The notes under the pieces are model-generated. The model worked only from the letters and a program-made list of their open reading frames with translations. It ran no database searches and was not told the origin of the DNA. Positions 818 to 59,457 of a stretch of DNA of 64,000 nt are shown piece by piece. Made by a program: the position numbers and the translations under genes. The DNA is from a virus, in the IMG/VR virus record IMGVR_UViG_3300021433_000003, positions 1 to 64,000 of that record; one strand, written 5' to 3'. Positions within the stretch are counted from its first letter, which is position 1, and each line of letters opens with the position of its first letter.

Positions 818-2619
818 TGGCCGATCCGCCACCGTTCGACCCCAGCAAGCCCTCACAGGCCGTTACGGGGAATGCGCCGGCTTTTGATCCGGCTAAGCCG
901 ACGCTAGCTGCTGGATCGGGTGAGCCGCGGGAAGGGGAGACCTCAGCGGGCGGTCTCGCGGCCTCGTTCACCCGGGGTCTAGCCCCGATCGCGGCGGGCG
1001 CGGGTATAGGGGCCGCTGCGGGCTCGGTTATCCCTGGGATCGGGACGGCCGTAGGGGCGGGCGCGGGCGCGGGCGCGGCCGGCCTGACTGAGCTTGCGAC
1101 GGCGGTCTACAAGCCTCTCGCGCGGCACATGGGTTGGCCCGATGCAGCGTCTCCGCAGGAGATGACCGATAAGGTGCTGGACGCTTTCGGAATGAAGCGC
1201 CCGAGTACGACGCCGGAGCGCATGGCGGAGACGGCGGGCGGCACTCTGCCGTTCGGTCTCACCGCCGGGGGGTTGGGCGATGCAATCGCCAGCAACAGCG
1301 CGGGGAAGGTCGACAGCTTCATCAAGTCGGCCTACCAGCGAGCGATCAAGCCGACCGTTGAAAGGGCAGGGACGGCCCCAGAGTTGGCTAAATACAATCA
1401 ACAGGCTAGATCTGCGATTGATTCCATCGTCGCCAACAAGCCGGCGCTGCGGTTCGTCGGGGAAGAGGGCGAGACCGCGGGCAAGTTGCCGAAGACGATC
1501 GAGCAATTCGGCGATGCGATCGATCAGACCAAGCAGTCGATATTCGAGAAATACGATGCGATGGCCCGGGCGGCGGGGCAGGCCGGGGCCAGAGTCGATC
1601 TTCATCCTGCGGCCAGCGAATTGCAGAAAATCGCCGCTGATCCGGTCGTGCGCGATCTTCATCCCGAGTTGGCAAAGTACGCCGAGGACCAAGCTGGCCG
1701 CTTGGCCGTCAGGGGCTCGTATTCGACCGTGGATGCGCAAAGGGCAATTCAGAATCTCAACCAGTCTCTCAAGGCATTCTACAAAAGCCCGACCTATGAA
1801 ACGGCGGGCCGTGCCGGGGTTGATGCGATGGTCGCGAACCAGTTTCGGTCTGGCCTGGACAAAGCGATCGAAGGCGCAACCGGGCCAGGATATCAGGCTC
1901 TGAAGAATGAGTACGGCTCCCTCAAGGCGATCGAGAAAGACGTAATCCATCGGGCTGTATTCGAGGGGCGGAAGAACCTCGGAGGCGGCTTGATGGGGAA
2001 TATCGGCGATCTTGTCTCTGCCGACGAAGTGATCCGTGGCGTGCTGACGCTGAACCCCGCCGCCGTGGCGCGCGGTGCCGCGCTCAAGGGATTTACGGCC
2101 TTTGTGAAGCGTATGCGCGACCCGAATCGGGCAATTGAGAAGATATTCGATGCGGCCGAGAAGCAAACGACAGCCCGTGAAGCGGCTCGCGCCGGGCTGC
2201 CAACGCACTCGGCGACGCCCCCATTGGCCTTGCCGGCTCCCGAGGTCGCCGGCCCCGGAGCGCCTTGGGTACAGGCAGGGGACAGCTTGATGCCGAGCGG
2301 CCCCAATTTCAGGATGAGGCAACCATCGCCGAGCGGGCTTGCCGATCATCCTGCAGAGGTTCAGCGGGCGATCAAGACCCTCGAGCGCTATTCAGCCAAA
2401 GCTCAGCCAAAGGCGCTCCCTGCGCCTCCGGCAAGACCTCTCCTGCCGCGCCCCGGAACAATTTATGGGCCGCAGCGTGCTCCGATCAGTACCGGGACGG
2501 GGTACATCCCTGGCAGCGCACCCGGCTTCACAACGCCAAATCCAGCTCTTTCCGACGCTGATGCCGTTCGGCGCATCCTTTCCGACACGAACCCGTTCGG
2601 CGCTGGGCCGGGATTTTAG
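817..2619 (+). CDS. Putative internal virion / DNA-ejection protein, 600 aa
   Basis: It starts at the ATG that shares its A with the stop codon of the previous gene. The N-terminus carries two short repeats of the form FDPSKP and FDPAKP. A glycine/alanine-rich hydrophobic stretch follows (about residues 55-95, GAGIGAAAGSVIPGIGTAVG), typical of phage ejection proteins that insert into membranes. Then come long amphipathic helices (about 170-440) and a proline-rich tail. No enzymatic motif is visible. Similar compositions occur in internal core or pilot proteins of podoviruses, but I could not assign a named family. The gene is followed by an AGGAGGT ribosome-binding site that overlaps its stop codon. 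Confidence 0.6.
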   Translation: MADPPPFDPSKPSQAVTGNAPAFDPAKPTLAAGSGEPREGETSAGGLAASFTRGLAPIAAGAGIGAAAGSVIPGIGTAVGAGAGAGAAGLTELATAVYKPLARHMGWPDAASPQEMTDKVLDAFGMKRPSTTPERMAETAGGTLPFGLTAGGLGDAIASNSAGKVDSFIKSAYQRAIKPTVERAGTAPELAKYNQQARSAIDSIVANKPALRFVGEEGETAGKLPKTIEQFGDAIDQTKQSIFEKYDAMARAAGQAGARVDLHPAASELQKIAADPVVRDLHPELAKYAEDQAGRLAVRGSYSTVDAQRAIQNLNQSLKAFYKSPTYETAGRAGVDAMVANQFRSGLDKAIEGATGPGYQALKNEYGSLKAIEKDVIHRAVFEGRKNLGGGLMGNIGDLVSADEVIRGVLTLNPAAVARGAALKGFTAFVKRMRDPNRAIEKIFDAAEKQTTAREAARAGLPTHSATPPLALPAPEVAGPGAPWVQAGDSLMPSGPNFRMRQPSPSGLADHPAEVQRAIKTLERYSAKAQPKALPAPPARPLLPRPGTIYGPQRAPISTGTGYIPGSAPGFTTPNPALSDADAVRRILSDTNPFGAGPGF

Positions 2620-3604: not shown

Positions 3605-3786
3605 AATCCAAGCCACGCACCAAGGCCGGGAAGCAGTCGAAGATGCATGCGGTCATGCACGAGTACAAAACCGGAGCCCTCAAATCCAGTTCCGGCTCCC
3701 CCGTAAAGAGCCGGTCGCAAGCTATCGCTATCGGCATGTCCGAAAGCGGGCAAGGCCGAAAGACCAAAGCAAGGAGAAAATCATGA
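3601..3786 (+). CDS. DUF6496-like small basic protein, 61 aa
   Basis: The sequence has the pattern of the DUF6496 family: VMHEYKTGALKSSSGSPVKS, followed by SRSQAIAIGMSE, flanked by Lys/Arg-rich ends. This family is short, basic and common in phages and alphaproteobacteria; its function is unknown to me. The strong positive charge would fit nucleic-acid binding, which is inference. The gene starts with ATG overlapping the previous stop and ends just before the first of the secreted proteins, with which it overlaps by 4 bases. Confidence 0.7.
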   Translation: MKSKPRTKAGKQSKMHAVMHEYKTGALKSSSGSPVKSRSQAIAIGMSESGQGRKTKARRKS

Positions 3787-4166
3787 TTGCCCGTAAGTTC
3801 CTCCTGGCGGCGGCCTTGGCGCTGATGCCGGGATTGGCGTTGGCGCAGGCGGCATACTGCCCCGATTATTCCCAGCACGCGACCACGCATCCAGCTGCCG
3901 AGACGGCCTACACCCTGTCTCCGAACGATCAATGCAAACTGCTGGTGTTTCAAAACACCGGCGCCGAGACCGTGACCCTGCCGGTGCCAAACGCCCTCTT
4001 CCCGATGGGATGGACCGTCCATGTGTTCGCGGCGGCAGCGGGCACCGTGACCCTCACGGCGGCGACCGGCACCACGATCAACGGCGGGGCCACTTTGGCG
4101 GACACCACCGGCATCGGAACAGACCTTTATGTGGCGCGTGGCAACGCATGGTGGGGCAAGCCGTGA
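3783..4166 (+). CDS. Secreted phage protein with Sec signal peptide, 127 aa
   Basis: A clear Sec signal peptide opens the protein: positive n-region (MIARKF), hydrophobic core (LLAAALALMPGLA), and an ALAQ cleavage site near residue 21. The mature part is a small beta-rich domain with YTLSPNDQCKLLVFQ and a run of Thr/Val/Gly strands (GTVTLTAATGTTINGG). This resembles small phage-associated domains built around ADACKVIVFN-type strands. It is the first of a long chain of signal-peptide genes and overlaps its successor by GTGA. Function is unknown; a virion surface or adhesin accessory role is suggested only by position. Confidence 0.65.
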   Translation: MIARKFLLAAALALMPGLALAQAAYCPDYSQHATTHPAAETAYTLSPNDQCKLLVFQNTGAETVTLPVPNALFPMGWTVHVFAAAAGTVTLTAATGTTINGGATLADTTGIGTDLYVARGNAWWGKP

Positions 4167-4531
4167 TCCGTCGCTGCGTTCTGGTTCTTGCTCTTATCCT
4201 ATTCGGGATCTCACCGGCGCGGGCGCAATTACCCACGCAACCAACCTCGCTCATCCCCCTTGGCTTCTGTCAGCTCACTCTCAGCGGGGCGACGTTGCTA
4301 ACCGCTTGCTCCGGCGGCATCCCCGACGGCGCTGTCGTCGCGATGATCACGGTCGAGACGCAGAATGTGCGCTGGCGAGATGATGGTACGGCGCCGACCT
4401 CAAGTGTCGGCATGCTGGTTTTAACAGGGACGACCTTCACCTATCAGGGGAATCTCGGACGGATCGACTTCATCCCGGCGACGGGTAGCCCGGTCCTCGA
4501 TATCTCGTTCTACAAATATCTCGTGGGCTGA
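4163..4531 (+). CDS. Secreted phage protein with Sec signal peptide, 122 aa
   Basis: I chose the GTG at 4163, which overlaps the previous stop (GTGA). An ATG at 4148 in the same frame is also possible and would only lengthen the n-region. The signal peptide is RRCVLVLALILFGISPARA followed by Q. The mature domain contains VRWRDDGTAPTSSVGM and a C-terminal VLDISFYKY, a pattern I associate with small beta-sandwich phage proteins that normally lack a signal peptide and often sit next to tail-fibre genes. The function is not established. Confidence 0.6.
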   Translation: MIRRCVLVLALILFGISPARAQLPTQPTSLIPLGFCQLTLSGATLLTACSGGIPDGAVVAMITVETQNVRWRDDGTAPTSSVGMLVLTGTTFTYQGNLGRIDFIPATGSPVLDISFYKYLVG

Positions 4532-4894
4532 ATGCGACGCCTCGCGCTCATCCTGATATTCCTCGCGAGCGCCGGGGCTGCCTTCGCGCAAAACCCCAAC
4601 GGGGTCTGCATCCAATGTCTCCCTAGGGCGCATATGCCGCTCACCGGGAACGAGCTTGTGCCTTGCGCGCAAGGGGGCGCTACCGTTGCCTGCCCGCTGG
4701 CGCGCGGCCTCTCGCCCGTACAATGCGTGCCCCCTACCGGATGCGTCAGCGGCTATGACCCGACGACGGGCCTGCCGAATTGCACGGCCTGCGGTGGTGG
4801 GGGAAGCACGCCGGGTGTGTTGCTGACCGGCGGTGATACGACAAGCTGCGTTCTCGTCGGAGGGGATACCTCTAGCTGTCTTTTGGTGAACTAA
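4532..4894 (+). CDS. Secreted protein with CIQC/QGGATV tail-type module, 120 aa
   Basis: The signal peptide is [19 protein letters not shown], with cleavage before QNPNG. The mature N-terminus reads GVCIQCLP, then [20 protein letters not shown]. The [11 protein letters not shown] pattern resembles the N-terminal module of many phage tail-fibre proteins (LTG-E-VPVVQGG), here with extra cysteines. The same module follows the signal peptide of the protein at 55868-57337. The C-terminus carries two near-identical repeats ending [16 protein letters not shown]. Probably a short tail-fibre relative. Confidence 0.6.
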
Positions 4895-4895
4895 A

Positions 4896-7805
4896 ATGAA
4901 ATTCCTACGGGCGCTGGCGTTCTTGGCTGTTTCGCTGCTCCCGTGCGCGGGGTTTGCGGGATCGAACTCCTACATCAGCCAGTTGGTGCCGGTCGGAAGC
5001 GTCCTCTCGACCGATCTATTCGCCGATTGCGCCACCGGCGGTTGCAGCTCCTCCACGCCAACCAAGTCGGCCAGCGCTTCTCAGCTTTCGACCTTTTTCA
5101 ACGCCAGTATCCCGGCCTTCACCGGAGATGTGACAACCCCTGGATCGGGCTCGTTCTTAACGTCGGTGGTCGGGTTGCAGGGGCGCCCGGTATCGGCGGC
5201 TGCTCCGGCGTCGACAAACGTTTTGGCGTGGAACGGATTGGCGTGGGCTCCCGCCGCCGCGACAGGAGGTTCGGGCACCGTCGGTAGCGGTACGCTGAAT
5301 CAGATCGCTGGCTATCCGGGAGCCGGAACGGCAGTCGCCGGGGTGACTGTCACTGGCGACTTCACGCTGCTCGGCTCGACCGGGGTCGGCACGCTCGCGA
5401 CAGTCAACGGCAATGTCGGGACTTTTGCGGCAGAGACCGTGAACGGCAAAGGACTGGTGACCGCCGCCGGGAACCTGTCGGGCGATTTGACCACGAGCGG
5501 AGCCGTCGCCACTTTTGCGACGGTCAACTCTAATGTCGGAAGCTTTACCAACGCCAACATCACGGTCAATGCCAAGGGCCTGATCACCGCGGCGTCAAAC
5601 GGCAGCGGCGGGTCGGCCGCTTTCAGCGCCTTGACCTCTAGCACAAACACGACAGCGGCGATGGTTGTCGGAACCGGAGCGTCGCTCGTTGCATCCGGCT
5701 CTGGCGCGATCATGGCGACGGAGGTTCCGGCTTCGCTGACGGGTTCGCTCTGCGCGGCGTCTGGTGTGATGACGGCCCCATCGGCGTGTCCGATCGTCCC
5801 GACCGTCATCAGCACAAGCACGGTCGCGCTGGTCGCGGCCAATGCCGGCCAGCTCGTCTTGGCGACCAACGCCTCGCCGACCACGATGACCCTGGCGCAA
5901 TCGACCGGATCGCTTGGTACGGGCTTCGGGCTCGACGCTTTCACTGAGCATCAGACTTCCACGTTGAACGTCACGACCAGCACCCTGAACGGGTTAGCAT
6001 CGATCAAGCTAGGCTCCTACCAAGATATTGCGATCGCAGCGGATAGCGCCGGCGAATATGTCGGGGCGCTGTCAGTGCCGCAACCGGCAACGCAGACGGG
6101 GACGACATTCCTGCGCGACGATATGACGTGGCAGACGCCAGCAGGCAGTGGCACCCTTAACCCGTCCGGGAGCATCACAAACGGTTCGTTTGGTATCTGG
6201 GCGTCTGGAACAACCCTCTCCGGCACGGTGGTCCCCGGCACTGGTGTTCTGACATTTCTGGCGACGCCTTCTTCGGCGAACTTAGCGGCGGCCGTAACGG
6301 GTGAGACCGGGTCTGGCGCGCTGGTTTTCGGGACGAGCCCTTCGCTGACGACTCCGACAATTGCCGGGGCGACCCTCTCCGGCACTCTAGCTGGCTCCCC
6401 GACTTTCTCTGGCGTCCCGGTCTTCAGCGGGACGCTCACAGGCACTCAGACGCAGTGCCTCGGGCTGACCAGCGGGAATGTACTGGCAGCGTCTTCGGGT
6501 GCTTGCAGTGGAGGGACGACGATCACGCTGGCCACGCCGGGCATCGGCAACACAGCATCGACCTATAACCCTGGCACCCAGACCGTTACCAATGGCAGTT
6601 CGATATTCATCCAGCCGCCCTTCTACGCGGCCCGGACTACGAGTTGCACTCTGAACTCCAATTGTGTCGCGAGCAGTACCAACGACAGCAATTATATGCT
6701 GACCGCGACTGCGGCTTCGGTGGTCTATACCGCGCCCAATCCCGGTGCTGCGGGCAGCAATTCATACAACTTTGGGTATGACGGCACACACACTTACTCG
6801 ATCACCACCGTAGGCGGGACGGCAACCTTCTACGGTGGCTGCGGCGCGGGGGCTACGACCTTCAGCGGCGTCGCCACGCCCGTCACTTTGATAACTGATG
6901 GCACCAACTGGCAATGCTTTCCGAACGGCGGCACCGGAAGCTCCGGCATCTCGGGCTTGACCACTGGCCAAATCCCGATCGCCGGCAGCTCGACTACGTT
7001 GACATCGAGTGTCGCCGCTCCGGCCGGAACCATCGTCGGGACGACCGATACCCAGACTCTGACCAACAAGACTCTAACCACGCCGACAATTAATGGCGCT
7101 GCGCTGTCGGGCACGCTAAGCGGCGCGCACACAATCTCGGGCGCGACCACACAAACCGGCACGTTCAAGTACACTCAGGCAGCGTCGGCTCCTTGCCCAT
7201 TAACAGACGCCGCGACCATCGCCGTGGCGGCCTCCTGCGGAGGCGTCCAAACAGTTACGATCACCGCGAACCGAACCCTCGGATTTCCGACGGGTCAGAT
7301 CGCGTCAACAAATCAGATTATGACTTTTGAGGTTACCCAGGATGGGACTGGCGGCCGGACCCTTGCTCTCGCGTCTGGCTATAATCCCACGACTATGGCG
7401 CTTAATCCGACTGCCGGGGCGGTGACGACTTTCTCTTGCGCAGTGGACTCGGCCTCAGCTACAGCCCAATGCGTGGGCGGCGCACCGACTGGAGCGACGG
7501 CGACTAATTGCTCTAATGGGGCCTCACCTGCCGTGTGCGTCTCGGCAAGAGCTGGAAGCGTGGCGGTGCCAACGGGTGTGAACCCTACTCTTGTCGTCAA
7601 TACGACGGCTGTGACGGCGGCGAGCGAAATTTTGCTGACGATCGACGAAAGCGCGACGATATCAGCGACGACTTGTAACACGACGCTCGCAACTCTCGTT
7701 CAGCCGGTCGTGACCGCGAGAACAGCGGCAACCAGTTTTACAATCCAGGTTCCGGCGACGCTCGCGACCAACCCGGCTTGCGTGAATTACTTAATAGTTA
7801 ACTGA
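4896..7805 (+). CDS. Large tail-fibre-like repeat protein with signal peptide, 969 aa
   Basis: It starts with a Sec signal peptide ([22 protein letters not shown]), then a module related to the previous gene ([18 protein letters not shown]). The body is built from Gly/Thr/Ser/Val-rich beta repeats typical of phage tail fibres, including [38 protein letters not shown] and [19 protein letters not shown]. No Lys-rich or globular enzymatic region and no intramolecular chaperone motif is visible. The likely role is a fibrous host-recognition or adhesin protein. The Sec signal is the odd part, since virion fibres are normally assembled in the cytoplasm. Confidence 0.75.
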
Positions 7806-7815
7806 GGGTAAGGTG

Positions 7816-8373
7816 ATGCTGAAAAGACTTCTGCTTGCCGGCGTTTTTGCGCTGATTGCTGCGCAAGGAGCACACGCTGCGGCGCGTTCGGCATGGACCG
7901 CCGGTAACGGCGTTGGGTACACATGGACTGCGGTCATGGCCTCGGGCGACATGACTTCGCTTGCCAACGGCAGCACTGTCCTTTCGAGTGCCGCCGATAT
8001 CACTAACCAAACCGCGCAAGACCAGTTCATGGATTTAGGCGGCGTATGGACGGTAGGCAGCGCCACCCCTCCTGCCGGGGCGTATATCGGCGTCTATCTG
8101 ATGCCGCTGAATAGCAACGGCACGACCTATGGAACTGGTGAAATGGCTTCTGGCGCGACGATCACCCGAGCGCCTGCGGCCGGACTCGTCTGCTCTATGC
8201 CACAAGAGACGGCGGGTGCGACCACGACTCTGGCAGGAACATGCACCGGCATTATCATTCCGCCCGGCAGTTTTCGGATCGCTGTCTTTAATAGTTCTGG
8301 TGCTGCGCTCAGCGCGACTGGCGGCAACAACACTCTGCTCTATCGCACCTACAACATCAACCTCAACAATTAG
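7816..8373 (+). CDS. Secreted protein with signal peptide, 185 aa
   Basis: The ATG at 7816 follows a GAGGGTAAGG ribosome-binding site; a GTG one codon earlier is also possible. The signal peptide is MLKRLLLAGVFALIAAQGAHA, with mature protein from AARSAWTAGNG. The rest is a beta-rich domain with LPLNSNGTTYGTGEMAS-type loops and a C-terminal LLYRTYNIN. It resembles small phage proteins found beside tail spikes, but I cannot name a family. It sits between the fibre-like gene and the LamG-like gene. Confidence 0.65.
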   Translation: MLKRLLLAGVFALIAAQGAHAAARSAWTAGNGVGYTWTAVMASGDMTSLANGSTVLSSAADITNQTAQDQFMDLGGVWTVGSATPPAGAYIGVYLMPLNSNGTTYGTGEMASGATITRAPAAGLVCSMPQETAGATTTLAGTCTGIIIPPGSFRIAVFNSSGAALSATGGNNTLLYRTYNINLNN

Positions 8374-8380
8374 TCCTCTG

Positions 8381-9349
8381 ATGGCTTTTCTTACCGGATA
8401 CGCGTCGATCTCTCGACGCGCGATGACGGGCACAATCCCGGTAGTTGCGCGTTCTCATCCATTAGCGAAAGGACTATTGGCTGCGTTTTATCCGGCCGCC
8501 TTCCCTGGCAGCACAATGACAAATTTAGCTGTTCCGGGGCTACTGGATCTAACGGTACGCCGCAACGCAAACTCATATAACGTGAACACTCCAGAGGGGC
8601 CAGGCCTTAATGGCATCTTGGGCCAGGCAAACACATCTGGGCTTCCAGCGAATTTTGTAGCTAACCCGCCAACAGGCGCGGTGTCGCTGTTCATCCGAGG
8701 AAAGTGGGGGCCTATAAATACTGGCACTGCGCCCGCCCAGATGTTTGGTTTCTATATAAATACGACGAACTTTCTTCAGCTTGCTCTACTGGCTGCTCCC
8801 GATCAACCAGCTCCGTCCGACAGTGTTATTGGTGTTGCATACCCAACTAACACCACAACCACAGCGTTGCCTGCGGGGACAACGGTGCCGGTTGTGGGAT
8901 CTATGGTTTCGGCCGGAGCGTCGTTCGTTTCAGGCGCGCTTCCTTCGCTTTATGTGAATGGTATCCAGCAGGTGCTCCAAGGGAGCCCGTCGGTAATGGT
9001 GTCTCCACTCGCGAACTGGAATGCCAATGGGCAGTTTACTCTTCAAGAGTTTCAGAGCAGTACTCGAACAGGCAGCATGGTGGCGACCGTTGCTTATGCA
9101 TGGGGCAACAGATTTTTAACGGCTGGGGAACATGCTTATCTGAATGCAAATCCTTATTCACTGCTGCGATGGCCTATTGATGTCGTTTATGACGTGCTTG
9201 AACAACCAGCCAGCACACCGCCCACTGGTACGGCGACAAGCAAGGCGATGATCCTCGCGCCGCTGACTGTCGGGCTTGGCGGCGTGGCTACGGCCGAACG
9301 CTGGCTGCGTCAGCGCAAGGACGCGATCCGACGACTTCGCGGTGAATGA
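8381..9349 (+). CDS. LamG/concanavalin-like tail protein, 322 aa
   Basis: The start ATG at 8381 follows the previous stop by 7 bases. Residues 25-60 read HPLAKGLLAAFYP, and the C-terminal part has VAYAWGNRFLTAGEHAYLNA followed by NPYSLLRWP. Together these match the beginning and end of the LamG-like (concanavalin-type) domains common in proteobacterial phage proteins, where the last strand is followed by the L-A-NPY-LF-P tail. It has no signal peptide, unlike all its neighbours, and ends in a basic helix (RWLRQRKDAIRRLRGE). Likely a carbohydrate-binding tail component. Confidence 0.7.
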   Translation: MAFLTGYASISRRAMTGTIPVVARSHPLAKGLLAAFYPAAFPGSTMTNLAVPGLLDLTVRRNANSYNVNTPEGPGLNGILGQANTSGLPANFVANPPTGAVSLFIRGKWGPINTGTAPAQMFGFYINTTNFLQLALLAAPDQPAPSDSVIGVAYPTNTTTTALPAGTTVPVVGSMVSAGASFVSGALPSLYVNGIQQVLQGSPSVMVSPLANWNANGQFTLQEFQSSTRTGSMVATVAYAWGNRFLTAGEHAYLNANPYSLLRWPIDVVYDVLEQPASTPPTGTATSKAMILAPLTVGLGGVATAERWLRQRKDAIRRLRGE

Positions 9350-11028
9350 TGCTGTGCCGATGGCTCCTAGCTGCGCTGCTGTGCCTCGCCGTCGCTCCGG
9401 CGTCGGCGTTGTTGCTGACGCGCGCGTCTGGAGGTGGATCTACATATCACGCCGCCACGATACACAATTACGTGTCATCTCTCACCAGTACCCAGATCCA
9501 CCAATTCGACATAAATGGGAACTCTATCGATGTAAGCGACGCCCGCATCTTGCAAGTCGGCACTACTGCTTATCTGTATGGCGACGCCAACGGATGCGGC
9601 CAGAGCATACAGAATAACGGGGTGTATTGCGGCGTTAACATCTACCAAGTGTGGGCAGACGCTAACGGCAATCCACAATTCCAGTTCCTCGGCCAGCCCT
9701 TCGACCCGACCGGGTCTCCGGTGGCTGCTAATTGCAGTCCGACAGCTACCTCGCCGATTGTGTTTCCGGGATGCTACAACACCGTCATATTATTCAACGC
9801 CGCGAATAATAACTATGTCATCTGGATTAATGGCGCTCAGGGCACGAACCAAAGCTATATGGTATGGACCTGTGCTAGCGTAGCCCAGATGACCAGCAAT
9901 GGCTGCGCGGCCGCAACTGCGCCAGCGCATCTCGGTCACGGCGGATCGGCGAACGCGAACGGGGATTATTCTCTGGCGATAGATGGATCAGGGAATGCGT
10001 GGATTGCCTACTCAAACAACAATAGCGGCCGGCATATCTTTGCGCAGGAGCTGAACTCGTCATTCACCGACGCGACGGGGAGCGACTTTGATACTGGTGT
10101 GACCGGCGAAGGTGTCGGGTTGTTCGTGGTTGGCAGCACATACTACATCACATACGGACCTCTTGCGGAATACTTCATCGCGGCGACCGACTACATCAGC
10201 TCGACCTCTCCGCTGTCTGCATGGTCCGGGATCACTGCACTAAACTCAAATTCTTGCTCCGGCCAAAACGGCGGGGGGACACCCACTGCCATCCCAGGAA
10301 CCCAGGTGCTATACCTGCCGGATAGATGGGCGCAAGCTCTCAGTGGCACCACACCGGGCCTCGGGAATCAGGCACTTAACAATATCTATTGGGCCGTCTT
10401 CGCATTCACCGGCAGCGCTCTCAACGCGATCACATGCGCCCCATCGAATAGCATCACGCTGCCCGCCGGCCCCGTGCCGACCCCATATTGGGCGGGGGCG
10501 CAGACAGGCTCGGAGGGTCTGTCTGGAGTAGCATATTGGGAACAAGGCTCGACCCAAAGCGCGGACCTTGGGGAAGGAGATTTGTCGCCGCCTTATCAAA
10601 GGGCTCAGAGTTTTACTGCCCCTACGAACCTATCATCAATCAATTTCGTGTTGACGACGGGCCAAGCCAACCGGCTATGCAAAGTCAACACCGGCTGCAC
10701 GGGGCCGACGGCGGGGCTCACTGCCACACTATTCGCAGTTGACGGGTCGCACCATCCCACTGGAAGCGCTCTCGCCACGCAAACGCTTGCGTCGGCCGCA
10801 TTCTCGTGGGCACCACAGCGTGTCACCTTCACGTTCAGTTCTCTGTCGCTAATAGCGGGGACTGAGTATGCGGTGGCGTTCAGCAGCCCCACAAATACGG
10901 CAGGAGGATACACATTCGCCTATAACGACACCGGCGCTTATTCGGGTGGCGTCGAAAGCTTTAGCTCGAATGGAGGCTCTACCTGGACGACCGAGGCGGG
11001 TCGGGTCATGAAGTTTTCGGTACAGTGA
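9346..11028 (+). CDS. Secreted GH43_24-like beta-propeller protein, 560 aa
   Basis: Signal peptide MMLCRWLLAALLCLAVAPASA is followed by LLLTRASGGG. Residues ~45-390 follow the blade pattern of GH43 subfamily 24 (exo-beta-1,3-galactanases). First blade: IDVSDARILQVGTTAYLYGD. Second: YNTVILFNAANNNYVIWING. Third: GDYSLAIDGSGNAWIAYSNN. Fourth: EGVGLFVVGSTYYITYG. A later PGTQVLYLPDRWA matches the family's FM-DRW strand. The Asp/Glu in these strands could be catalytic but I cannot confirm all of them. Residues 410-560 form a beta-sandwich (a FTAPTNLSSINFVL-type domain). A glycan-cleaving tail or secreted enzyme is likely; family assignment is by eye. Confidence 0.65.
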   Translation: MMLCRWLLAALLCLAVAPASALLLTRASGGGSTYHAATIHNYVSSLTSTQIHQFDINGNSIDVSDARILQVGTTAYLYGDANGCGQSIQNNGVYCGVNIYQVWADANGNPQFQFLGQPFDPTGSPVAANCSPTATSPIVFPGCYNTVILFNAANNNYVIWINGAQGTNQSYMVWTCASVAQMTSNGCAAATAPAHLGHGGSANANGDYSLAIDGSGNAWIAYSNNNSGRHIFAQELNSSFTDATGSDFDTGVTGEGVGLFVVGSTYYITYGPLAEYFIAATDYISSTSPLSAWSGITALNSNSCSGQNGGGTPTAIPGTQVLYLPDRWAQALSGTTPGLGNQALNNIYWAVFAFTGSALNAITCAPSNSITLPAGPVPTPYWAGAQTGSEGLSGVAYWEQGSTQSADLGEGDLSPPYQRAQSFTAPTNLSSINFVLTTGQANRLCKVNTGCTGPTAGLTATLFAVDGSHHPTGSALATQTLASAAFSWAPQRVTFTFSSLSLIAGTEYAVAFSSPTNTAGGYTFAYNDTGAYSGGVESFSSNGGSTWTTEAGRVMKFSVQ

Positions 11029-11032
11029 AGTG

Positions 11033-12094
11033 ATGCGTTCCATTCTTGGGATAGGATCACTCCTTGTCGCTGTGGCGCTGTCTTTCTCTGTCGCTCCGGC
11101 GTTAGGGCTGTTACTGAAGGGCGGGGCGGCTGGATACACTGATTTTTGCTCACAGTCCTTTATCGCCGGATCATGTATCTACGCCTATGACCTGAACCAG
11201 CGTCGAGTAAGCTCGAATGCCGTGCCATTCAAACTTACTCGCATTAGTGACAGCGCGACGCTTAACGGCAGCTATATTGGAGGCACTTTCTCGGTTAATG
11301 TTAGCGCGGTAACAGCATTTTGCGTTGGGAACGGGGGCACTACGACAGCCCAAACCTATAGTACTCAGTATAATGATTGCACTTACACAACCATTTATAA
11401 TCAAACAGGAATGGGCTGCGATCTGATAGCTGGCGCGCCTTATAATCTGACCAGCGCGACGGCTCACGCGCCGCTCGTTCAGGTTCGCACGAGTGATGGA
11501 ACGCTGGCTATTATCACACCGGGGACTGGCATAGCTGGATCGCCTGCGGTCCCATATACCAGTCCGGCGGCTAAATACCTCTTCAGCAACGGCTGTACGT
11601 TGGCCGATGGTGGCGCCGCCAGAACCTTAATAGGTAGAGGAAGCAACGCCTTCTATGGAGATGTCACTCATGCCAGCGGTGAATATGGGAGAATTGAGAC
11701 CAACCCAGCGCCCGGCAACGTTCCTTCTGGCTCGGCGATGAATACCGAGTTCTTTGTAAGTGGAGGCTTTTCTGATTATGATACGGATATTGAGGGCGGC
11801 GCGTTGTGTGTTGCCGGCTCTCCATTTTCTACATCTCCGACAATAGACGTTACTGGAGTTATCACCTATAGCTCTACTGCTGGCGGCTCAAACATTTGGT
11901 ACAATAATTCACAGACGGGGCCAGCTAACTGTGCCCCATTTACTACGGTCAACACTCAGGACGGGATAGTTATTGGCTGCTCTGGTGATTATACGCTGTG
12001 TAACAACAACTATTTTAGGGGGATGGCAATACTTAACATCGATGCGTCGTTGACCGCTGGTTTGCCGTCACAAATTTACAACGCATTGCGATGA
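11033..12094 (+). CDS. Secreted GH54-like (arabinofuranosidase B fold) protein, paralogue 1
   Basis: The ATG at 11033 is preceded in frame by a GTG at 11030. Signal peptide up to about residue 25 (SFSVAPALG), then LLLKGG. The body follows the GH54 catalytic domain: CIYAYDLNQRRVSSNAVPFK, TRISDSATL, AFCVGNGG and TTIYNQTG correspond to the family's C-AAHSTTRAL, L-R-SD-TT and IIYDQSGNG stretches. By alignment with GH54, the nucleophile Glu falls at E254 (DTDIEGG) and the acid/base Asp at D319 (GCSGDYT). The Cys-Cys pair of the substrate pocket is missing. Clear tandem paralogue of the next gene. Confidence 0.65.
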   Translation: MRSILGIGSLLVAVALSFSVAPALGLLLKGGAAGYTDFCSQSFIAGSCIYAYDLNQRRVSSNAVPFKLTRISDSATLNGSYIGGTFSVNVSAVTAFCVGNGGTTTAQTYSTQYNDCTYTTIYNQTGMGCDLIAGAPYNLTSATAHAPLVQVRTSDGTLAIITPGTGIAGSPAVPYTSPAAKYLFSNGCTLADGGAARTLIGRGSNAFYGDVTHASGEYGRIETNPAPGNVPSGSAMNTEFFVSGGFSDYDTDIEGGALCVAGSPFSTSPTIDVTGVITYSSTAGGSNIWYNNSQTGPANCAPFTTVNTQDGIVIGCSGDYTLCNNNYFRGMAILNIDASLTAGLPSQIYNALR

Positions 12095-13143
12095 CCCGTA
12101 CTGTCTCTGCTCTCTTTATCGCGCTGGTTGCAGCGATTATATGTTCCGCCGTTGACCCGGCGGAGGCGTTGCTGCTGCGAGGCGGTGGTAACGGCGCGGT
12201 TGCTTATAGCGACCTCTGTTCGCAGACGAATGTACCCTGCGTTTACGCGTGGTCCGTCACGCATCGTCTTAACTCGACGAACACCGATCCGTTTCAACTT
12301 ACTCGGACGAGTGATAGCGCGGTCTTCGAGGCCAGCTATACCGGGAGTAATTTCGTCGTCAACGTGTCCGCTGCGACGACTTTCTGTCTCGCCAATGGTG
12401 GCACGACCACAACGACGGCGACTTACACTCAGTACAACGATTGTACGTTCACCGATCTCTACGATCAGAAGGGGACGTGTAATCTGCTAGCGCTTGAGAC
12501 GAACAAGCGCCCCCCTTTCAAAACATGGCTCGCTGACGGGTTCCCGGTCATCATCCAAACCACGGTCAGCAACGGTACAGTCGGCGCTACAACGGGATGG
12601 TTGACCGGGTTTGGATGCTCGGCCGTCGCAGGCGCTGCCGCGAAGAGCCTGATATTTTACACGAACAGCACTTATGGATCGCTGTGCTGTGGCCAGTTTG
12701 GTTTCGGTGAAAATGGAAGCGGTTCCAATCCGACGCGGCCGATCCCCATTGTCAGCGGATCGATGTTAGCGCAGTTCTGGTTCACTGGCAGTCCAGTCCC
12801 TGCGGGATCAACAAACTACAACTATGACGACGAGGGTGGCGGAGGAGGAGGACGAACCTTTGTGAACAGCACTCCTGTCTCGGGCGTTGGGGTCATCACC
12901 TACAGCGGCGGCACCAATCTAATAAACGATTGGTTCAACAACATCCAGGGCGACACTAATTTTACTCCTCTTCAAACGATCAACACCCAAAGCCGAGTGA
13001 ATCTTGGATGCTCCGGTGATTTGACCTCGTGCGGACCGTACTGGTTCCGCGATATGGCGGTTACTTCCAATGACGTGTCGGCTGTTGGTGGATTGCCTAC
13101 AGCGATCTACACTTACCTGACGAACTTTTATGCCAGCATTTAA
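12091..13143 (+). CDS. Secreted GH54-like (arabinofuranosidase B fold) protein, paralogue 2
   Basis: Signal peptide ends at about residue 26 (DPAEA), followed by LLLRGGGNG. The pattern is the same as in the preceding gene: CVYAWSVTHRLNSTNTDPFQ, LTRTSDSAV, TFCLANGG, TDLYDQKGTC. Here the hallmark GH54 residues all have counterparts: adjacent cysteines C199-C200 (YGSLCCGQFG), E248 (YNYDDEGG) for the nucleophile and D310 (LGCSGDLTSCG) for the acid/base. In characterised GH54 enzymes these release alpha-L-arabinofuranosyl groups. Activity is predicted, not shown. The gene overlaps its paralogue by ATGA and the next gene by 14 bases. Confidence 0.7.
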   Translation: MTRTVSALFIALVAAIICSAVDPAEALLLRGGGNGAVAYSDLCSQTNVPCVYAWSVTHRLNSTNTDPFQLTRTSDSAVFEASYTGSNFVVNVSAATTFCLANGGTTTTTATYTQYNDCTFTDLYDQKGTCNLLALETNKRPPFKTWLADGFPVIIQTTVSNGTVGATTGWLTGFGCSAVAGAAAKSLIFYTNSTYGSLCCGQFGFGENGSGSNPTRPIPIVSGSMLAQFWFTGSPVPAGSTNYNYDDEGGGGGGRTFVNSTPVSGVGVITYSGGTNLINDWFNNIQGDTNFTPLQTINTQSRVNLGCSGDLTSCGPYWFRDMAVTSNDVSAVGGLPTAIYTYLTNFYASI

Positions 13144-14866
13144 GTTCATAGCCACTATTATCTTGGCCGCTGCGCTCGCGCTGAATGCTCTGCCAGTCGC
13201 GGCGCATTTCAGACTGGCATCGCATGGCGGTCAGGGCTCTGGAGGCGGCGCAACCAACGTTATCTCGGTTCAGCTCGGGAACGAAAACCTGCCAGTGAGC
13301 GCAGCGAGCGGCCATGTCATCGGCCCGTTGACCGCCAAGGTGACGGGCGGCGGGGCTTGCGTCGGCTGCACGTTTTCTATGGTCAATTCAGGCGCGTCCT
13401 CGGATGGCAGCGTTCCTATTTCATGCAGTGCATCAAGCAACGACTTTCAGGTTATCACTTCCGGTCCAGACCCGGTTGATCTCGCGAACTTAAACGTCAT
13501 CAGTACCGCTCAAATTTATGGACAGGCTGATCCTGCCTCGCCGACTCATAGTTATATCTGTGTAAAGGCTACTCCGCCGGTCGGCGCGTCGTTTACGCAG
13601 CCGTTCTCGATCATGGTGCGGAACCCGACCTTTACCGCTTTTGGGCCGCTTTTCGTTCAGTACACGACTGGTGTCGGCGAGACGGTGCCGCTTTCGACCA
13701 CAATATGCTGGACGCATTGCGGCGGTGCTGGATCTCCACCGGCCGTGACCTACACGCTCGGGGCCGATGCGGCTTGTACTGCTTCCGGCATCTCGATCTC
13801 GGGCAGCAACCTGATTTTCAGCTCGTCGTACACCGTGCCGAACGCTGGTGCAGGCGGAGCGAATTGCCATATCACCGCGACTGCGGCTGGTGTCGGTACG
13901 GGAATGATCGGAACGTCTGGATCGTCTTTCGTCGCTGATGTCCATATCTCTCAGGGAGCTTATGTTGGGCCAGGAGATGCGACCTACCCGAACGGTGCGA
14001 CGGGCATGACTTGGCCTGTCTGGACTGGCCCCTATGCTATCAGCGCAGCTTATGCGACGGCTGGAAATCCGATTTGGCTCGTGCAGCGCGAGGGCGATGG
14101 CCAGTTCTTCACAATCAATGCGCTCACTAACGGCGACATGGATTACAATACGCTGGCGAGCGACTGTGACACGTCAATCTGTTACCTCAACCTTGCCTAC
14201 GATCAGAGCGGCAACAGTCCAGGCTGCATTGTTACCGCTCCGACAAATTGCATGCCGACCTGGGGTCAGGCAACCGGAGCGGGCATAACTACTCGGAAGC
14301 CAGTTATCTTTTTCGACGCATTTGACGGCACCCGGGTCTCGCCGACGAACAGCAACAGCACTGATCGGGGCATGTGGAACCCCACCGCGTACAATGGCAG
14401 CGGCACGACCGGGACGCTATGGATAGATGCGGAGGAAAATACTGGTGTGTTCGGCGGCCCGGTGGTTGCCCTCAATTCCTCGAATGGCGTATCCAATCCA
14501 ATCGCTCAGCTCTCGTTCACGAACGGGGGCGGCTCTAGCTGCTACGTCGGACCAGGTGCGGGCGGCGGCGGAACGATCAGCGAATCGACAGCAGCCGGCG
14601 GTGTCCTGCATAGCATGATCTGCACACTGAACGGCTCAACAACGAATGGTTCGACACTAAAGATTGACGGAACCGAGACGACAGGAACGCTTCTGAACGC
14701 AAGCCTGAAAATACCTCTCGGGTTTGGGATGACGTATGGTGGCGGGTCTGATCAGGGCTTCATCCCTGGCCCATCAGCAGTCTCATCGACAGTAGCAAGC
14801 TCGTCACAGCGGCAGGCACTGTGCCTGTTCGATCAATGGACCTATGGGATCAGCGGAACATGCTGA
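13130..14866 (+). CDS. Secreted multidomain protein with arabinofuranosidase-like segment, 578 aa
   Basis: Signal peptide MPAFKFIATIILAAALALNALPVAA, then HFRLASHGG, a tag shared with the next gene. Residues 40-290 are Thr/Ser/Gly-rich, probably two or three Ig-like beta domains with scattered cysteines. Residues 295-360 contain AISAAYATAGNPIWLVQRE and CYLNLAYDQSGN, resembling the N-terminal half of GH54/arabinofuranosidase-type domains common in phage tail proteins. The C-terminal 200 residues are a beta-sandwich (LamG-like). Catalytic residues are not identifiable, so it may be a binding protein. Likely an adhesin or glycan-binding tail-type component. Confidence 0.55.
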   Translation: MPAFKFIATIILAAALALNALPVAAHFRLASHGGQGSGGGATNVISVQLGNENLPVSAASGHVIGPLTAKVTGGGACVGCTFSMVNSGASSDGSVPISCSASSNDFQVITSGPDPVDLANLNVISTAQIYGQADPASPTHSYICVKATPPVGASFTQPFSIMVRNPTFTAFGPLFVQYTTGVGETVPLSTTICWTHCGGAGSPPAVTYTLGADAACTASGISISGSNLIFSSSYTVPNAGAGGANCHITATAAGVGTGMIGTSGSSFVADVHISQGAYVGPGDATYPNGATGMTWPVWTGPYAISAAYATAGNPIWLVQREGDGQFFTINALTNGDMDYNTLASDCDTSICYLNLAYDQSGNSPGCIVTAPTNCMPTWGQATGAGITTRKPVIFFDAFDGTRVSPTNSNSTDRGMWNPTAYNGSGTTGTLWIDAEENTGVFGGPVVALNSSNGVSNPIAQLSFTNGGGSSCYVGPGAGGGGTISESTAAGGVLHSMICTLNGSTTNGSTLKIDGTETTGTLLNASLKIPLGFGMTYGGGSDQGFIPGPSAVSSTVASSSQRQALCLFDQWTYGISGTC

Positions 14867-17800
14867 TACTGCGTCTTCTCGTCGTCATGCTGACGCTGTG
14901 CCTTCCGGCGTCGGCGCACTTCCGGCTGGGGAGCCACGGCGCGGCGTCTTCTGTGTCGTCTGGCGTGGTTTTCTCTCAGACGGTCAAGAACATCGCCAGC
15001 GCGACGACGCCGACGATCGCTGGCACGACGATGGTCGCGACGCATATCGGCACGATGTATCCGCCCGGCGCGGTCCCATCCGGTGATATCGTGGTTGCCA
15101 AGGTCGGCGGCGTTACTCTCGCGAGCGCCCAGATCGACAGCCAGCAGTGCTCGTTCTGGCCAGACGGATCGTTGAGGTTCTGCCCGTTCTCGGGCTTTGT
15201 GCCACAGATGGCGTCGGGAGCCAGTCAGCAAGTTACTTTTTCAGTTCAGGCCGGCAGCTTCCCTACATCATCCTCAGTGACTCCAGCCACGATCGCTGCT
15301 GCGAGCGACTTCAAGGTCGTGCTGAGCAACATGAACGGTTCCTATACGAAGCAGGGTCCGCAGGGACCATCAGTCTGGTACGGGGCCTATCCCGGTTTCT
15401 ATGTGTCAGGTGGCGCGATCTCTGGCGGGTATGTCAGGAACCAGCCTACGACCGCGGCGGCTCCACAAGGCTTGCTCGGCTTCAACTGCACGTCGGGTAG
15501 CGCGAATTGCATCACACCATCGAATTACCAAGCGTCTGTCAGTACGACTACATCGTCAGGTAGCGCGGTCCTGACTTTCTCCAGCCTCCCTGTCCCGCCA
15601 CAGTACATTTTCAACAACCCCCAGCAAATCACTATCATCGACGTAACGAATCCGAGCTCGATCCCGGACAACACGACGGTTTTGTCGTTTAATAGCAGCG
15701 CAAAGACGGTAACGATGTCCGCCAACGCCGCCGCGAATATTACCTCCGGCGATACTCTCGCATTTGGCTACACGATCCACGGGGGAACCAGCAACGGGGC
15801 CTTCACGGTCACCGTGAATGGCTCCAATGTCATAACCGGCGTCAATATCATCAAGGCTGGCGGTGGCTTTTCGGCGGTCGGCTCCGGGGCGATGACCGCC
15901 GACATTGATACGATCCTCAACGCCTATGGCTCGACCGATCCATCGAGTTGTGCGTCGATGCCAGGGGCAGCCGCCTTCACGGAGTCGTTTTCCGGCTCGA
16001 CGATGACGGTTTCGAGCGTGACGGGCGTGGTCTCGATCGGACAGATGGTCGATGACGGAACCAACCTTGCGATAATCACGGCTGGCAGCGGCACGACATG
16101 GACGATCCAGGGTACGTTAGCAGCGGGTCCGATATCGGCCACGTCCACCCCGGCCCTGTGCGTCTACACCTCCGGCCCGACTGTGAAGGCGTATCGAGGC
16201 ATCGGCGCATACCGCGACAACGTAAGCGGCACCAAAGATGCCTGGGAGCGGTTCCGCTTCACCATCGAGGCGTGGACCGGACCTACCGGTCTATATGCGA
16301 TCAAGCCGGTAATTACTACCGATAATTCAGTCTATAAAAACCACAATGGCTGGCCGAACGTCGTCTACGACGCCGACTTCAAGAACGGCTCGACCGAGAT
16401 CATCGGCTGTGCGCAGGGCGGCTCAAATAACAAATGGTGTGCGATCCAGCAGCAGGTCAACGGCTCGTGGGCGGCGCTCGATCCATGCGAGGCCTGCGCG
16501 ATCGGAGCAACCGGCCGGCCAGTGTGGTTGCCGACGACGACAGGAACTTACAGCACACCGAACAGCCAAGCTCTCGCGCAGGTAGTCGTCTCCCCAGCCT
16601 CAGCCGACCTCGCCTTCATCCACGCCGCGCGGGCGGCTCTGCCGCTGAATAACACAATCACGGTCAGTCCGGCCGTGCTTACGACGACGACGGGGACATT
16701 CGGCTCGCCTTATTACACGAACCTCTATGCGCCCTATGAGCATGGCGGGACCGACGCAACGACAGGATTTGGGTCGGGTGGTTCTGGGCATATTGGCCTT
16801 GGGCCAATGGGATCGCCTTGGGCATACTGGTATCAGGCAGCCGAAGGCGGTGCGAGCGACGGCGGCGTTAGCTATCTAGCAAACATGAGAGTTGCCGCCG
16901 AATCAACGGCAGGCATGATGGATGGACCGCGGTACGATGACACGGGACTGCCGTTAAATTACTTCAACTCAGGCAGCGGATATACCCCGCCAGCGGCGTT
17001 CACGGACTCCAATACCTGGGATTTCGTGATGGATCAGTACAACAAGGCAGCTAGCTATCCCAATGATTTTATGTGGCAGGGCGATGTCCCGTCTCCGACT
17101 ACCGCCCAGCCGGCCCTGGCCAATACACAGATCGAGAATAACGACGGATACGGCGACACATCGCACTGGCCTGAGTTCCAGCACGGCATTTATTTGGTCG
17201 AGGCTGAGCGGTACATCTTGGAGAATTGGATCGACGAAGCGAATGGGGTGGCGTTAGGGCCATCCAATACCGATGGAAACACGCGATCTCTGTCATTCGG
17301 CGGAACGAGATATGATGCGCAAGGGATGAGCAGCAGCATTCCGCGGCAAAACTCGTGGTGGGCAAATGTGACTGTGCCGGTGGCATATCTCGGGCCGCCG
17401 AACGAGCCCTCTATCCAATACTACAAGCACGTCGTTGCCACCAACTACGCGATGAATTACGCTTTCTACAGTTTCATAGGCACCGGCAATTTCTGGGATG
17501 CGGCGGCGGGGGCTTCGGTGTGGCCGTTCCCCAAGTATTATGACAATACCGCCAACGGCGATCAGGCGACGCCGGAGGATTACAGGACTACGGTTCCGAA
17601 CAATTCGTCAATAATTGATACATTATTCATGCAACTGTATTGGGGCATGAACACCGACGAGGCGGTGATGTTCGATAACGGCAACGACGCCAACCTCACT
17701 GGTTTTGCGCGCAATTTCCTGGACAACTACTTGGTCAAGAACCCGGCTATCAATACCTGCGCCTACAACAATGTTGCCTATGTAATCAAATGGGCAAATG

Positions 17801-18765
17801 CGACCACCCACCAGACCGCGCCTTATGTATCGCCCCAACCGGGATGGGACGCGACGACGGTCACCGGAACGCCCCAGCGTGGGAATGGCCCAATCTCCGG
17901 CGATAATACGATCCACACCGAAAATGGTTCATCGACCGTCTCGGCGTCGCTGGAAACCGCCGGCAACACCGGAGCGTGGTCATTCACGCCGACGGCGACC
18001 GCGCCGGTGTCACCCGGAGGCACTTCGATCCCGCTGTCTAGCGTCACCTCACCGCAAAGCGGGCCGATAACGACGGGATGGGTGATCAAGGATCTCGACA
18101 ATCCAACCGCCCTTACATGGCCGACCTATGTCACCGCGCCTGCCTCGGGGCTGACGATCTCGATCTCGTCTCCGGTGACCGGGCCAGGAATCTCGATCAA
18201 TGACCGCATCGTGGTGTCGGCGAGTTGGCCGTGGGTCTATCCGATCTTCTCGACAACTCGGCTGGCGTCCGGCACGCGGATGAGCATCGCCGACGTTGAT
18301 TGGCACGATCAGACGAGCCCGAGCGACTCCAGCCAAGGGCTGTCGGGATGGCCACCGTCCTCGACCCCACAGGTGACCGATGGGCAATGGCTTTGGCTTT
18401 GCATGGACGCTTCTGGCGCGGCATTTGGCCAACTGAGCACGACACAACCAACGATCTCGGGCGGTGTTTGCACCGGCGGCACAACCTACGTGACCTGGAA
18501 CATCACCGCCGATTTTGGGGTGGCGACGATAGCTAATGCGAGTTGTCCGGCGGCATCGTCCGGTGACTGGCGCAATCCTGCCGTGAACGGTGAGGAAGAG
18601 GCTGAGATGTATGCCACCGCGCAATGGCGCAAGGCGCTCAACGGCGTCCTCGGGACTAGCACCGACGCGAACACGGCAATCACCCAACTGACGCCTTATG
18701 TAACCCCGCTAAGCACGACCTACAGCGACGGGCAGGTTCAGTGGGGCGCGGACAATCATTTCTGA
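14860..18765 (+). CDS. Very large secreted, putative polysaccharide-active protein (YetA/PcRGLX-like), 1301 aa
   Basis: The ATG at 14860 gives a proper signal peptide (MLILRLLVVMLTLCLPASA) and the HFRLGSHG tag; an in-frame ATG at 14821 would spoil it. Near residue 70 are PPGAVPSGDIVV and FWPDGSLRF, a motif pair seen in YetA/PcRGLX-type (exo-rhamnogalacturonan lyase-related) proteins. The middle (about 700-900) has GDTSHWPEFQHGIYLVEAER and RQNSWWANVTVPVAY, resembling the alpha/alpha-barrel part of the same group. Beta-sandwich segments follow and the protein ends near QWGADNHF. Substrate unknown. Largest gene in the window and last in the adhesin array. Confidence 0.55.
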   Translation: MLILRLLVVMLTLCLPASAHFRLGSHGAASSVSSGVVFSQTVKNIASATTPTIAGTTMVATHIGTMYPPGAVPSGDIVVAKVGGVTLASAQIDSQQCSFWPDGSLRFCPFSGFVPQMASGASQQVTFSVQAGSFPTSSSVTPATIAAASDFKVVLSNMNGSYTKQGPQGPSVWYGAYPGFYVSGGAISGGYVRNQPTTAAAPQGLLGFNCTSGSANCITPSNYQASVSTTTSSGSAVLTFSSLPVPPQYIFNNPQQITIIDVTNPSSIPDNTTVLSFNSSAKTVTMSANAAANITSGDTLAFGYTIHGGTSNGAFTVTVNGSNVITGVNIIKAGGGFSAVGSGAMTADIDTILNAYGSTDPSSCASMPGAAAFTESFSGSTMTVSSVTGVVSIGQMVDDGTNLAIITAGSGTTWTIQGTLAAGPISATSTPALCVYTSGPTVKAYRGIGAYRDNVSGTKDAWERFRFTIEAWTGPTGLYAIKPVITTDNSVYKNHNGWPNVVYDADFKNGSTEIIGCAQGGSNNKWCAIQQQVNGSWAALDPCEACAIGATGRPVWLPTTTGTYSTPNSQALAQVVVSPASADLAFIHAARAALPLNNTITVSPAVLTTTTGTFGSPYYTNLYAPYEHGGTDATTGFGSGGSGHIGLGPMGSPWAYWYQAAEGGASDGGVSYLANMRVAAESTAGMMDGPRYDDTGLPLNYFNSGSGYTPPAAFTDSNTWDFVMDQYNKAASYPNDFMWQGDVPSPTTAQPALANTQIENNDGYGDTSHWPEFQHGIYLVEAERYILENWIDEANGVALGPSNTDGNTRSLSFGGTRYDAQGMSSSIPRQNSWWANVTVPVAYLGPPNEPSIQYYKHVVATNYAMNYAFYSFIGTGNFWDAAAGASVWPFPKYYDNTANGDQATPEDYRTTVPNNSSIIDTLFMQLYWGMNTDEAVMFDNGNDANLTGFARNFLDNYLVKNPAINTCAYNNVAYVIKWANATTHQTAPYVSPQPGWDATTVTGTPQRGNGPISGDNTIHTENGSSTVSASLETAGNTGAWSFTPTATAPVSPGGTSIPLSSVTSPQSGPITTGWVIKDLDNPTALTWPTYVTAPASGLTISISSPVTGPGISINDRIVVSASWPWVYPIFSTTRLASGTRMSIADVDWHDQTSPSDSSQGLSGWPPSSTPQVTDGQWLWLCMDASGAAFGQLSTTQPTISGGVCTGGTTYVTWNITADFGVATIANASCPAASSGDWRNPAVNGEEEAEMYATAQWRKALNGVLGTSTDANTAITQLTPYVTPLSTTYSDGQVQWGADNHF

Positions 18766-18775
18766 TGGGGCCGCG

Positions 18776-19087
18776 ATGCAGAGCTGGCTTCTAGTCCTGT
18801 TCCAGGGCATTACCGCGCTCGGCGTGCTCTACGGCATCTGGAATACGATCCTTGCCCGGCGAGAGACTGTAGCGGCGTCGCGCGAGGCTGCGGCGCATGC
18901 CCAGGCGGCGGTAACCGAAATTCAGCATGTGGCGGCCAAGGTCGAAGAGGTTCATGTTGCCACCAATTCGCTTGTTTCCAAGGCCGAGGCGGCCGCTGAT
19001 GCACGAGGTGAGCTGCGTGGTATCGAGATTGGCGAGGCGCGGGCCGCTACGGCGGCCGAAGATCAGCGCAACCCACCTCAAACATAG
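18776..19087 (+). CDS. Membrane-anchored coiled-coil protein (lysis-accessory candidate), 103 aa
   Basis: One N-terminal membrane helix (about residues 3-25, WLLVLFQGITALGVLYGIW) is followed by a long Ala/Glu-rich coiled coil and a polar tail. Topology resembles an inner-membrane spanin (i-spanin) or a small holin-associated protein. No sequence signature decides between them. It begins a run of small membrane-protein genes (18.8-20.8 kb) directly after the adhesin array, so a lysis cassette is the best inference. Confidence 0.55.
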   Translation: MQSWLLVLFQGITALGVLYGIWNTILARRETVAASREAAAHAQAAVTEIQHVAAKVEEVHVATNSLVSKAEAAADARGELRGIEIGEARAATAAEDQRNPPQT

Positions 19088-44912: not shown

Positions 44913-45202
44913 TGGGCGAGATGTCCGGTCTGCTGCGGTCGATAACGGAACATGCGGGCGGTGAGGCCCCGGAATTCATGGTGGTGGGGGTGGATGATTA
45001 TTGCTCGCTGATCGAGAGCGCCGCGAGCAATCCGTGGGAATTGCGTAGGATGCTTAGGACGGCTGTGCCTGGCTGGTCGGCAAGCCGCAGAACGGCGTCC
45101 TGGAGGCATTTGAACGTGCCTCGTCGCCGCATTATCCGGCGCTTCCGCCCTAATTCGGGACCGCCGGGGTCACGAAACCGTTTCTGGACCTTTCTCCGCT
45201 AA
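44912..45202 (+). CDS. Small hypothetical protein, 96 aa
   Basis: ATG shares bases with the J-domain stop. The first half is folded-looking (APEFMVVGVDDYCSLIESAA), the second very basic (SWRHLNVPRRRIIRRFRPNS). Position directly before the large terminase suggests a small terminase subunit or DNA-binding accessory, but there is no HTH I can identify. Confidence 0.45.
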   Translation: MGEMSGLLRSITEHAGGEAPEFMVVGVDDYCSLIESAASNPWELRRMLRTAVPGWSASRRTASWRHLNVPRRRIIRRFRPNSGPPGSRNRFWTFLR

Positions 45203-57563: not shown

Positions 57564-57564
57564 C

Positions 57565-59456: not shown

Positions 59457-59457
59457 C

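Follow-up and report, generated by a model that had tools for sequence, protein, structure and literature searches.

It is generally assumed that the fibers of tailed phages fold and assemble in the host cytoplasm, a reducing environment. The usual tailspike build couples a conserved N terminus, through which docking occurs, to a variable C terminus, and multi-depolymerase phages carry several spikes per virion, which are understood as cytoplasm assembled and free of signal peptides. The phage lineage described here resembles multi-depolymerase phages in encoding many different, apparently glycan-directed receptor-binding proteins per phage but differs in that these proteins begin with signal peptides. 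They resemble the fibers and tailspikes of podophages (T7 gp17, P22 gp9 type, and S74 fibers) in their T7-like gene slot, in their conserved N termini and variable C termini, and in the S74 and tail PHROGs matches of relatives. Unlike those proteins, they have predicted cleavable Sec signal peptides and even, paired cysteines, whereas ordinary homologues of one of their domains have no signal peptide.

Phage proteins that carry Sec signals and act in the envelope have been described, such as Lom and the fOg44 endolysin Lys44 (PMC12309495; PMC6116005). These two proteins, SAR endolysins, and spanins share with our set a phage origin, a Sec signal, and a presumed activity in the envelope, but they are lysis or membrane proteins, and none lies in the fiber slot, has fiber domains, or occurs in up to 12 genes per phage. 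Exported bacterial proteins favor even numbers of cysteines, owing to disulfides, and the DsbA-dependent periplasmic proteins of Gram-negative bacteria combine a signal peptide with an even mature cysteine count, as our proteins do (PMC7678975); here, however, such proteins are encoded in the late module of a tailed phage. An earlier report of Sec-exported tail fibers was not found in the open-access literature.

Genome and lineage

The window, by which we mean the whole stretch of DNA that was analyzed (64,000 nucleotides), belongs to a virus record 65,422 bases (65.4 kb) in length. It derives from an uncultured, podovirus-like phage, with terminase, portal, and capsid genes present, and includes a run of eleven genes at positions 3783 to 18765. 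Its landmarks outside the run are as follows.

817..2619, + strand: putative internal/ejection virion protein, directly 5' of the run; weak tape-measure match (phrog_167, 7.6e-5)
18776..19087, + strand: small membrane protein, 3' neighbor of the run, assigned from sequence and T7 order; weak match to a family of unknown function
45202..47115, + strand: large terminase, by tblastn to annotated terminases
48134..49828, + strand: portal, by tblastn to an annotated portal
53319..54323, + strand: major capsid protein; identity is 30-33% with the Manatee phage capsid proteins and 52-66% with their counterparts in relatives
59434..61683, + strand: nozzle-like structural protein, matching virion structural PHROGs (3.9e-19)

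The lineage was defined by the portal. Searches of public phage records with the portal recovered two relatives and no more, each of them distant and of Manatee Spring origin, and tblastn also obtained terminase matches in such records. IMG/VR contains at least 586 portal relatives of this phage; no IMG/VR relatives were found for TerL alone, for genes g8 and g9, or for the CIQC N terminus (see below). A portal profile matched only MAG contigs among GTDB genomes (Acetobacteraceae, Verrucomicrobia, Balneolaceae, and Alphaproteobacteria). Our lineage comparison comprises 19 genomes, namely, the window and 18 larger relatives, the latter read in stretches.

Between the scaffold-like and capsid genes of the window lies what appears by eye to be a free-standing, CxxC-rich HNH-type endonuclease gene (52682-53290, +). 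Glycosyltransferase-like and NAD-epimerase-like genes, also recognized by eye, adjoin the packaging genes of two relatives (G001, 17.8-24.5 kb, and G003, 18-24 kb, in portal-forward orientation), where they possibly modify the host surface.

Signal peptides in the gene run

Signal peptides were called with a rule of our own, not with SignalP. A passing N terminus has a basic n-region; an h-region that lacks charge, spans 8 or more residues, and averages a hydropathy of at least 2; and an AxA-type site. Open reading frames were reread with all possible starts, and we picked the best starts for the gene set, which is listed below (a slash marks the predicted cleavage site).

g1, 3783..4166, +: signal peptide (MIARKFLLAAALALMPGLALA/Q) and about 105 aa; 2 mature Cys; weak matches to PHROGs without assigned function, the best being phrog_21978 (6e-6)
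g2, 4163..4531, +: signal peptide (..VLVLALILFGISPARA/Q); GTG start; 2 mature Cys; homologue in G006/L172
g3, 4532..4894, +: signal peptide and short Cys-rich protein; 10 mature Cys
g4, 4896..7805, +: signal peptide and 946-aa repetitive fiber-like protein; 18 mature Cys; small repeat match to the Manatee Spring phages
g5, 7816..8373, +: signal peptide and 164 aa; 2 mature Cys; homologue in L159
g6, 8381..9349, +: the only run gene without a signal peptide; zero Cys
g7, 9346..11028, +: signal peptide and about 539 aa; mature start LLLTRASGGG; 10 Cys
g8, 11033..12094, +: signal peptide; mature start LLLKGGA; 10 Cys; paralogue of g9
g9, 12091..13143, +: signal peptide; mature start LLLRGGG; 10 Cys; 43% identity to g8
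g10, 13130..14866, +: signal peptide; mature start HFRLASHGG; 16 Cys
g11, 14860..18765, +: signal peptide; mature start HFRLGSHGA; 1282 aa; 14 Cys; best Pfam match PcRGLX (rhamnogalacturonan-lyase-like), subthreshold (E 0.022)
g12, 55868..57337, +: signal peptide, CIQC..VPC N terminus, and C-terminal part of about 400 aa; 12 Cys; between two structural genes
g13, 57345..57563, +: signal peptide and 53-aa protein; 2 mature Cys

The starts of two run genes were corrected: the open reading frame at 14821 most likely begins at 14860, and the second gene begins at 4163 (GTG) or 4148. The mature N termini of g3 and g12 have in common the motif CIQCLxxxxxPLxGxExVPCxQGGATVxCP. The structural genes flanking g12 and g13 (55176-55868 and 57451-58593, both +) appear by eye to encode paralogous adaptors. 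Structure predictions for g9 (pLDDT 27, from a 2-row alignment) and mature g12 (pLDDT 35, from a single sequence) were too poor for fold comparison.

A preliminary description of this DNA had assigned Sec signal peptides with AxA-type sites to ten of the eleven run genes and to the genes at 55868 and 57345, and our rule returns exactly this set (scores, 39.9 to 50.3), the sole exception in the run being 8381-9349. In a six-frame control using the longest starts, 16 of 246 open reading frames passed, 9 of which belong to the run, and most of the others scored lower. The pass rate was 10/11 inside the run versus 2/59 elsewhere in the genome (P ~2e-9, Fisher exact test), and when residues 2-40 of each protein were shuffled, the call survived in 0.2-3.8% of shuffles. 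T7 and both Manatee Spring phages contain no passing gene of at least 100 aa; in Roseophage SIO1 a single short gene passed, and it lies outside the tail genes. The signal peptides of the 12 window proteins are real, far beyond chance.

Of the 19 genomes, counting the window, 15 have signal peptide genes of at least 100 aa in their late half, and in G001 a single run contains seven of them. The capsid tree places such genes on its deepest branch (the window) and throughout its crown. They are absent from the pair G011/G017, from some fragments, and from the two outgroup phages; several of these fragments may simply fail to reach the tail genes.

Cysteine parity

The mature cysteine count is even in 12 of 12 signal peptide proteins of the window. 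The idea of parity arose post hoc, from a first tally in which signal peptide proteins were richer in cysteine than other proteins (P = 7e-7) and 49 of 54 had even counts (P = 2e-10). Parity was then repeated in fresh loci, where 13 of 14 signal peptide proteins were even (12 of 13 without L165, a duplicate of G018), and on smaller contigs, where all 4 were. The cleaned total for the lineage is 67 of 71, compared to ~51% of those lineage proteins that lack signal peptides and contain at least two cysteines; with one protein per sequence cluster, at least 35 of 38 are even (worst P, 3e-8).

Two other sources of parity were rejected. Shared ancestry does not account for counts that span 2 to 32, nor for parity that persists with one protein per cluster, and metal-binding CxxC pairs are discounted by the lack of parity bias in proteins without signal peptides.

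Within the lineage, one domain, QSGxVTPGHxxxWxTxGV, is found both in proteins that carry a signal peptide and in proteins that lack one. Among QSG proteins of at least 200 aa, all 20 with a signal peptide have even counts (4-32 Cys; median, 1.72% Cys), as opposed to 1 of 6 without (median, 0.24%), and the short forms without signal peptides mostly have zero cysteines. In the xW...G..DxG repeats of QSG proteins, both cysteines are present in 10 instances with no true single, since two repeats counted as single were overlapping reads of the same pairs; by the repeat pattern, no paired-Cys repeat occurs in proteins called as lacking a signal peptide. An exception to this division is a QSG protein of G011 (35940, portal-forward orientation), which has 18 cysteines and no signal peptide. 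The aligned N termini consist of a divergent hydrophobic stretch, an A/Q-type junction, and then a conserved motif, and identity within the class is 55% at the mature N terminus versus 28% at the C terminus.

Of 21 long, predicted exported QSG proteins, 8 have directly upstream the gene for a short, cysteine-poor QSG protein without a signal peptide, which may be a cytoplasmic docking partner or part of the docking site. These short upstream proteins, those at L119:9027-9512 and L092:11060-11530 together with six similar ones, join the QSG domain to an FNxTNDQPI...TNASxSLTTAAGGFY domain; the first two had no PHROGs match.

Because of their signal peptides, their even and pairwise-covarying mature cysteines, and their conserved AxA/Q sites, the signal peptide proteins are, judging from sequence, very probably exported, cleaved, and disulfide bonded in the periplasm. 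The preliminary description had proposed either that such proteins are exported and delivered to the cell surface or that they are virion proteins retaining an N-terminal hydrophobic anchor. The export half of the first proposal is strongly supported by the even, pairwise-covarying cysteines; delivery to the cell surface is not, with no outer-membrane anchor or further secretion signal seen on the fiber-slot proteins. The second proposal would have virion proteins assembled in the cytoplasm keep uncleaved N-terminal segments that anchor them or that insert into the membrane when DNA is ejected. The N termini are indeed hydrophobic, and the fiber slot suggests virion proteins, but the conserved AxA/Q sites and the even, pairwise-gained cysteines imply that the body of the protein folds in an oxidizing compartment, which makes retention of an uncleaved anchor the least probable of the readings considered, and a very improbable one.

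Gene position and domain content

The same description had read tail-fiber, LamG-like, and glycan-enzyme domains into the mature parts of the window's proteins, but these parts yield no confident Pfam or PHROGs function. Searches for LamG (PF13385) and S74 in the window's own genome were negative, and neither Pfam nor PHROGs gave a confident known tail-fiber homologue for any of the 12 signal peptide proteins. Domains of the tail-fiber and glycan-enzyme types were found only in the signal peptide proteins of relatives. At L007:16093-17805, a signal peptide is fused to a fiber (phrog_8443, tail fiber, 1.5e-7) ending in Peptidase_S74 (PF13884, 6.8e-9), a chaperone of trimeric fibers. The protein at L092:7623-8957 joins a signal peptide to a phrog_5939 tail-protein domain (1.7e-33), homologues of which in other phages are annotated as tail fiber or tail protein and have no signal peptide. 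A GDSL/lipase domain follows the signal peptide at L007:14521-16086, and there is a beta-helix match among the relatives' signal peptide proteins. The Pfam and PHROGs matches of the window's and relatives' proteins included neither an outer-membrane barrel family, as in Lom-like proteins, nor a peptidoglycan hydrolase domain, as in Sec and SAR endolysins.

The order of putative ejection proteins, run, and small membrane protein matches that of T7 genes 13-16, 17, and 17.5 (holin). A second N-terminal class, marked by a C...PC pair, joins g3 (4532) and g12 (55868) to at least eight relatives, and the relatives that were tabulated per gene have few other long fiber candidates. Because of the T7-like gene position, the conserved N and variable C termini, and the S74 and tail-protein domains of relatives, we infer that the signal peptide proteins are receptor-binding proteins.

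Docking on the virion has one main rival, which sequence alone does not separate from it: the proteins would be adhesins and glycan enzymes, exported and carrying disulfides, that stay off the virion and do their work in the periplasm or, once the cell has lysed, outside it. Their possible roles would include degradation of capsule or exopolysaccharide, release of progeny, and blocking of receptors, whether those of debris or those of the infected cell. The export and cysteine evidence fits such soluble proteins equally well, the window's proteins are many and varied, relatives contribute an esterase/lipase domain and the beta-helix match, and phages export other proteins by Sec, e.g., Lom and the Lys44 endolysin (PMC12309495; PMC6116005). 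These genes nevertheless occupy the fiber slot, one with an S74 fiber chaperone and one with a tail-protein domain, the tabulated relatives offer few other candidates for a long fiber, and a conserved N terminus with a variable C terminus is the build of a docked spike. We regard soluble action, in any of these roles, as a substantial possibility but lean against it.

A model of periplasmic maturation

The reading that we now favor is a third one, absent from the preliminary description, in which receptor-binding proteins of the virion complete their maturation in the periplasm and are added to the particle when the cell lyses. Fiber or spike proteins and glycan-interacting proteins would be translated with a cleavable Sec signal peptide, cross the inner membrane, be cut by signal peptidase I, and fold with disulfide bonds in the host periplasm. 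Mature fibers would pile up there while heads and tails are built in the cytoplasm, and lysis would mix the two. The fibers would then dock on virion tails through the conserved N terminus that signal peptidase exposed, for which candidate docking motifs are LLLRGGG, HFRLGSHG, and CIQC...VPC in the window and QSGxVTPGH and C...PC in relatives. Other phages make late docking plausible, since their finished particles can take up spikes and fibers in vitro.

The steps of this model differ in standing: the signal peptides, their distribution in the lineage, and the cysteine pairs are plain in the sequences, and periplasmic oxidative folding is well supported, whereas virion attachment, docking at lysis, and the docking motif are steps that we infer. 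Several points weigh against periplasmic maturation followed by docking. Twelve different fibers would be many for one short tail, their docking would need to succeed in a lysate that has been diluted, and G011 and G017 have no such signal peptides, the G011 QSG protein carrying its 18 cysteines without one. For the model as a whole, with receptor-binding or glycan-interacting proteins passing through Sec, folding in the periplasm, and docking at lysis, the balance seems to us even. That an entire tailed-phage lineage builds its receptor-binding proteins outside the cytoplasm, completing the virion only at lysis, is a proposition on which we stand slightly below that point.

If true, the model would violate the rule of wholly cytoplasmic assembly for tailed-phage particles. 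With 1 to 12 exported fibers per genome, it would entail disulfide-stabilized fibers, would add a new step to assembly, and would make the phage directly dependent on the Sec and Dsb systems of the host. Annotation would be misled, as a signal peptide is easily taken to mean a nonvirion protein, and cysteine parity offers a cheap test for other phage genomes.

Signal peptide genes outside the run

A remaining explanation is that the genes are captured host secreted proteins, or morons, unrelated to the tail and adjoining the tail genes by chance. Some such genes probably do occur elsewhere, at 39199-39498, 41576-42022, and 42033-42680 of the window and as porin-like genes in G001, G006, and G012. 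The place of the fiber-slot genes in the late module is conserved, however, their N-terminal domains are common to phage proteins without signal peptides, and there are the S74 and tail PHROGs matches in relatives, so that a moron origin for the run strikes us as improbable.

The genes in G001, G006, and G012 encode small signal peptide proteins downstream of the fiber run (L007:3478-4293, -; L096:6174-6944; L103:14992-15669). By eye, these look like alphaproteobacterial outer-membrane proteins, with an ADLPxKAPP start, and may represent a Lom-like gene; the two outer-membrane-like proteins of this group that were tested had no Pfam match. In the window, the gene at 41576-42022 encodes a signal peptide and 4 cysteines and is the 5' neighbor of 42033-42680 (+). 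The product of the latter begins with a signal-like segment and has at its C terminus a PEP-CTERM sorting motif (PF07589, 20.1 bits; cutoff, 20.7), which suggests exosortase-dependent display in the host.
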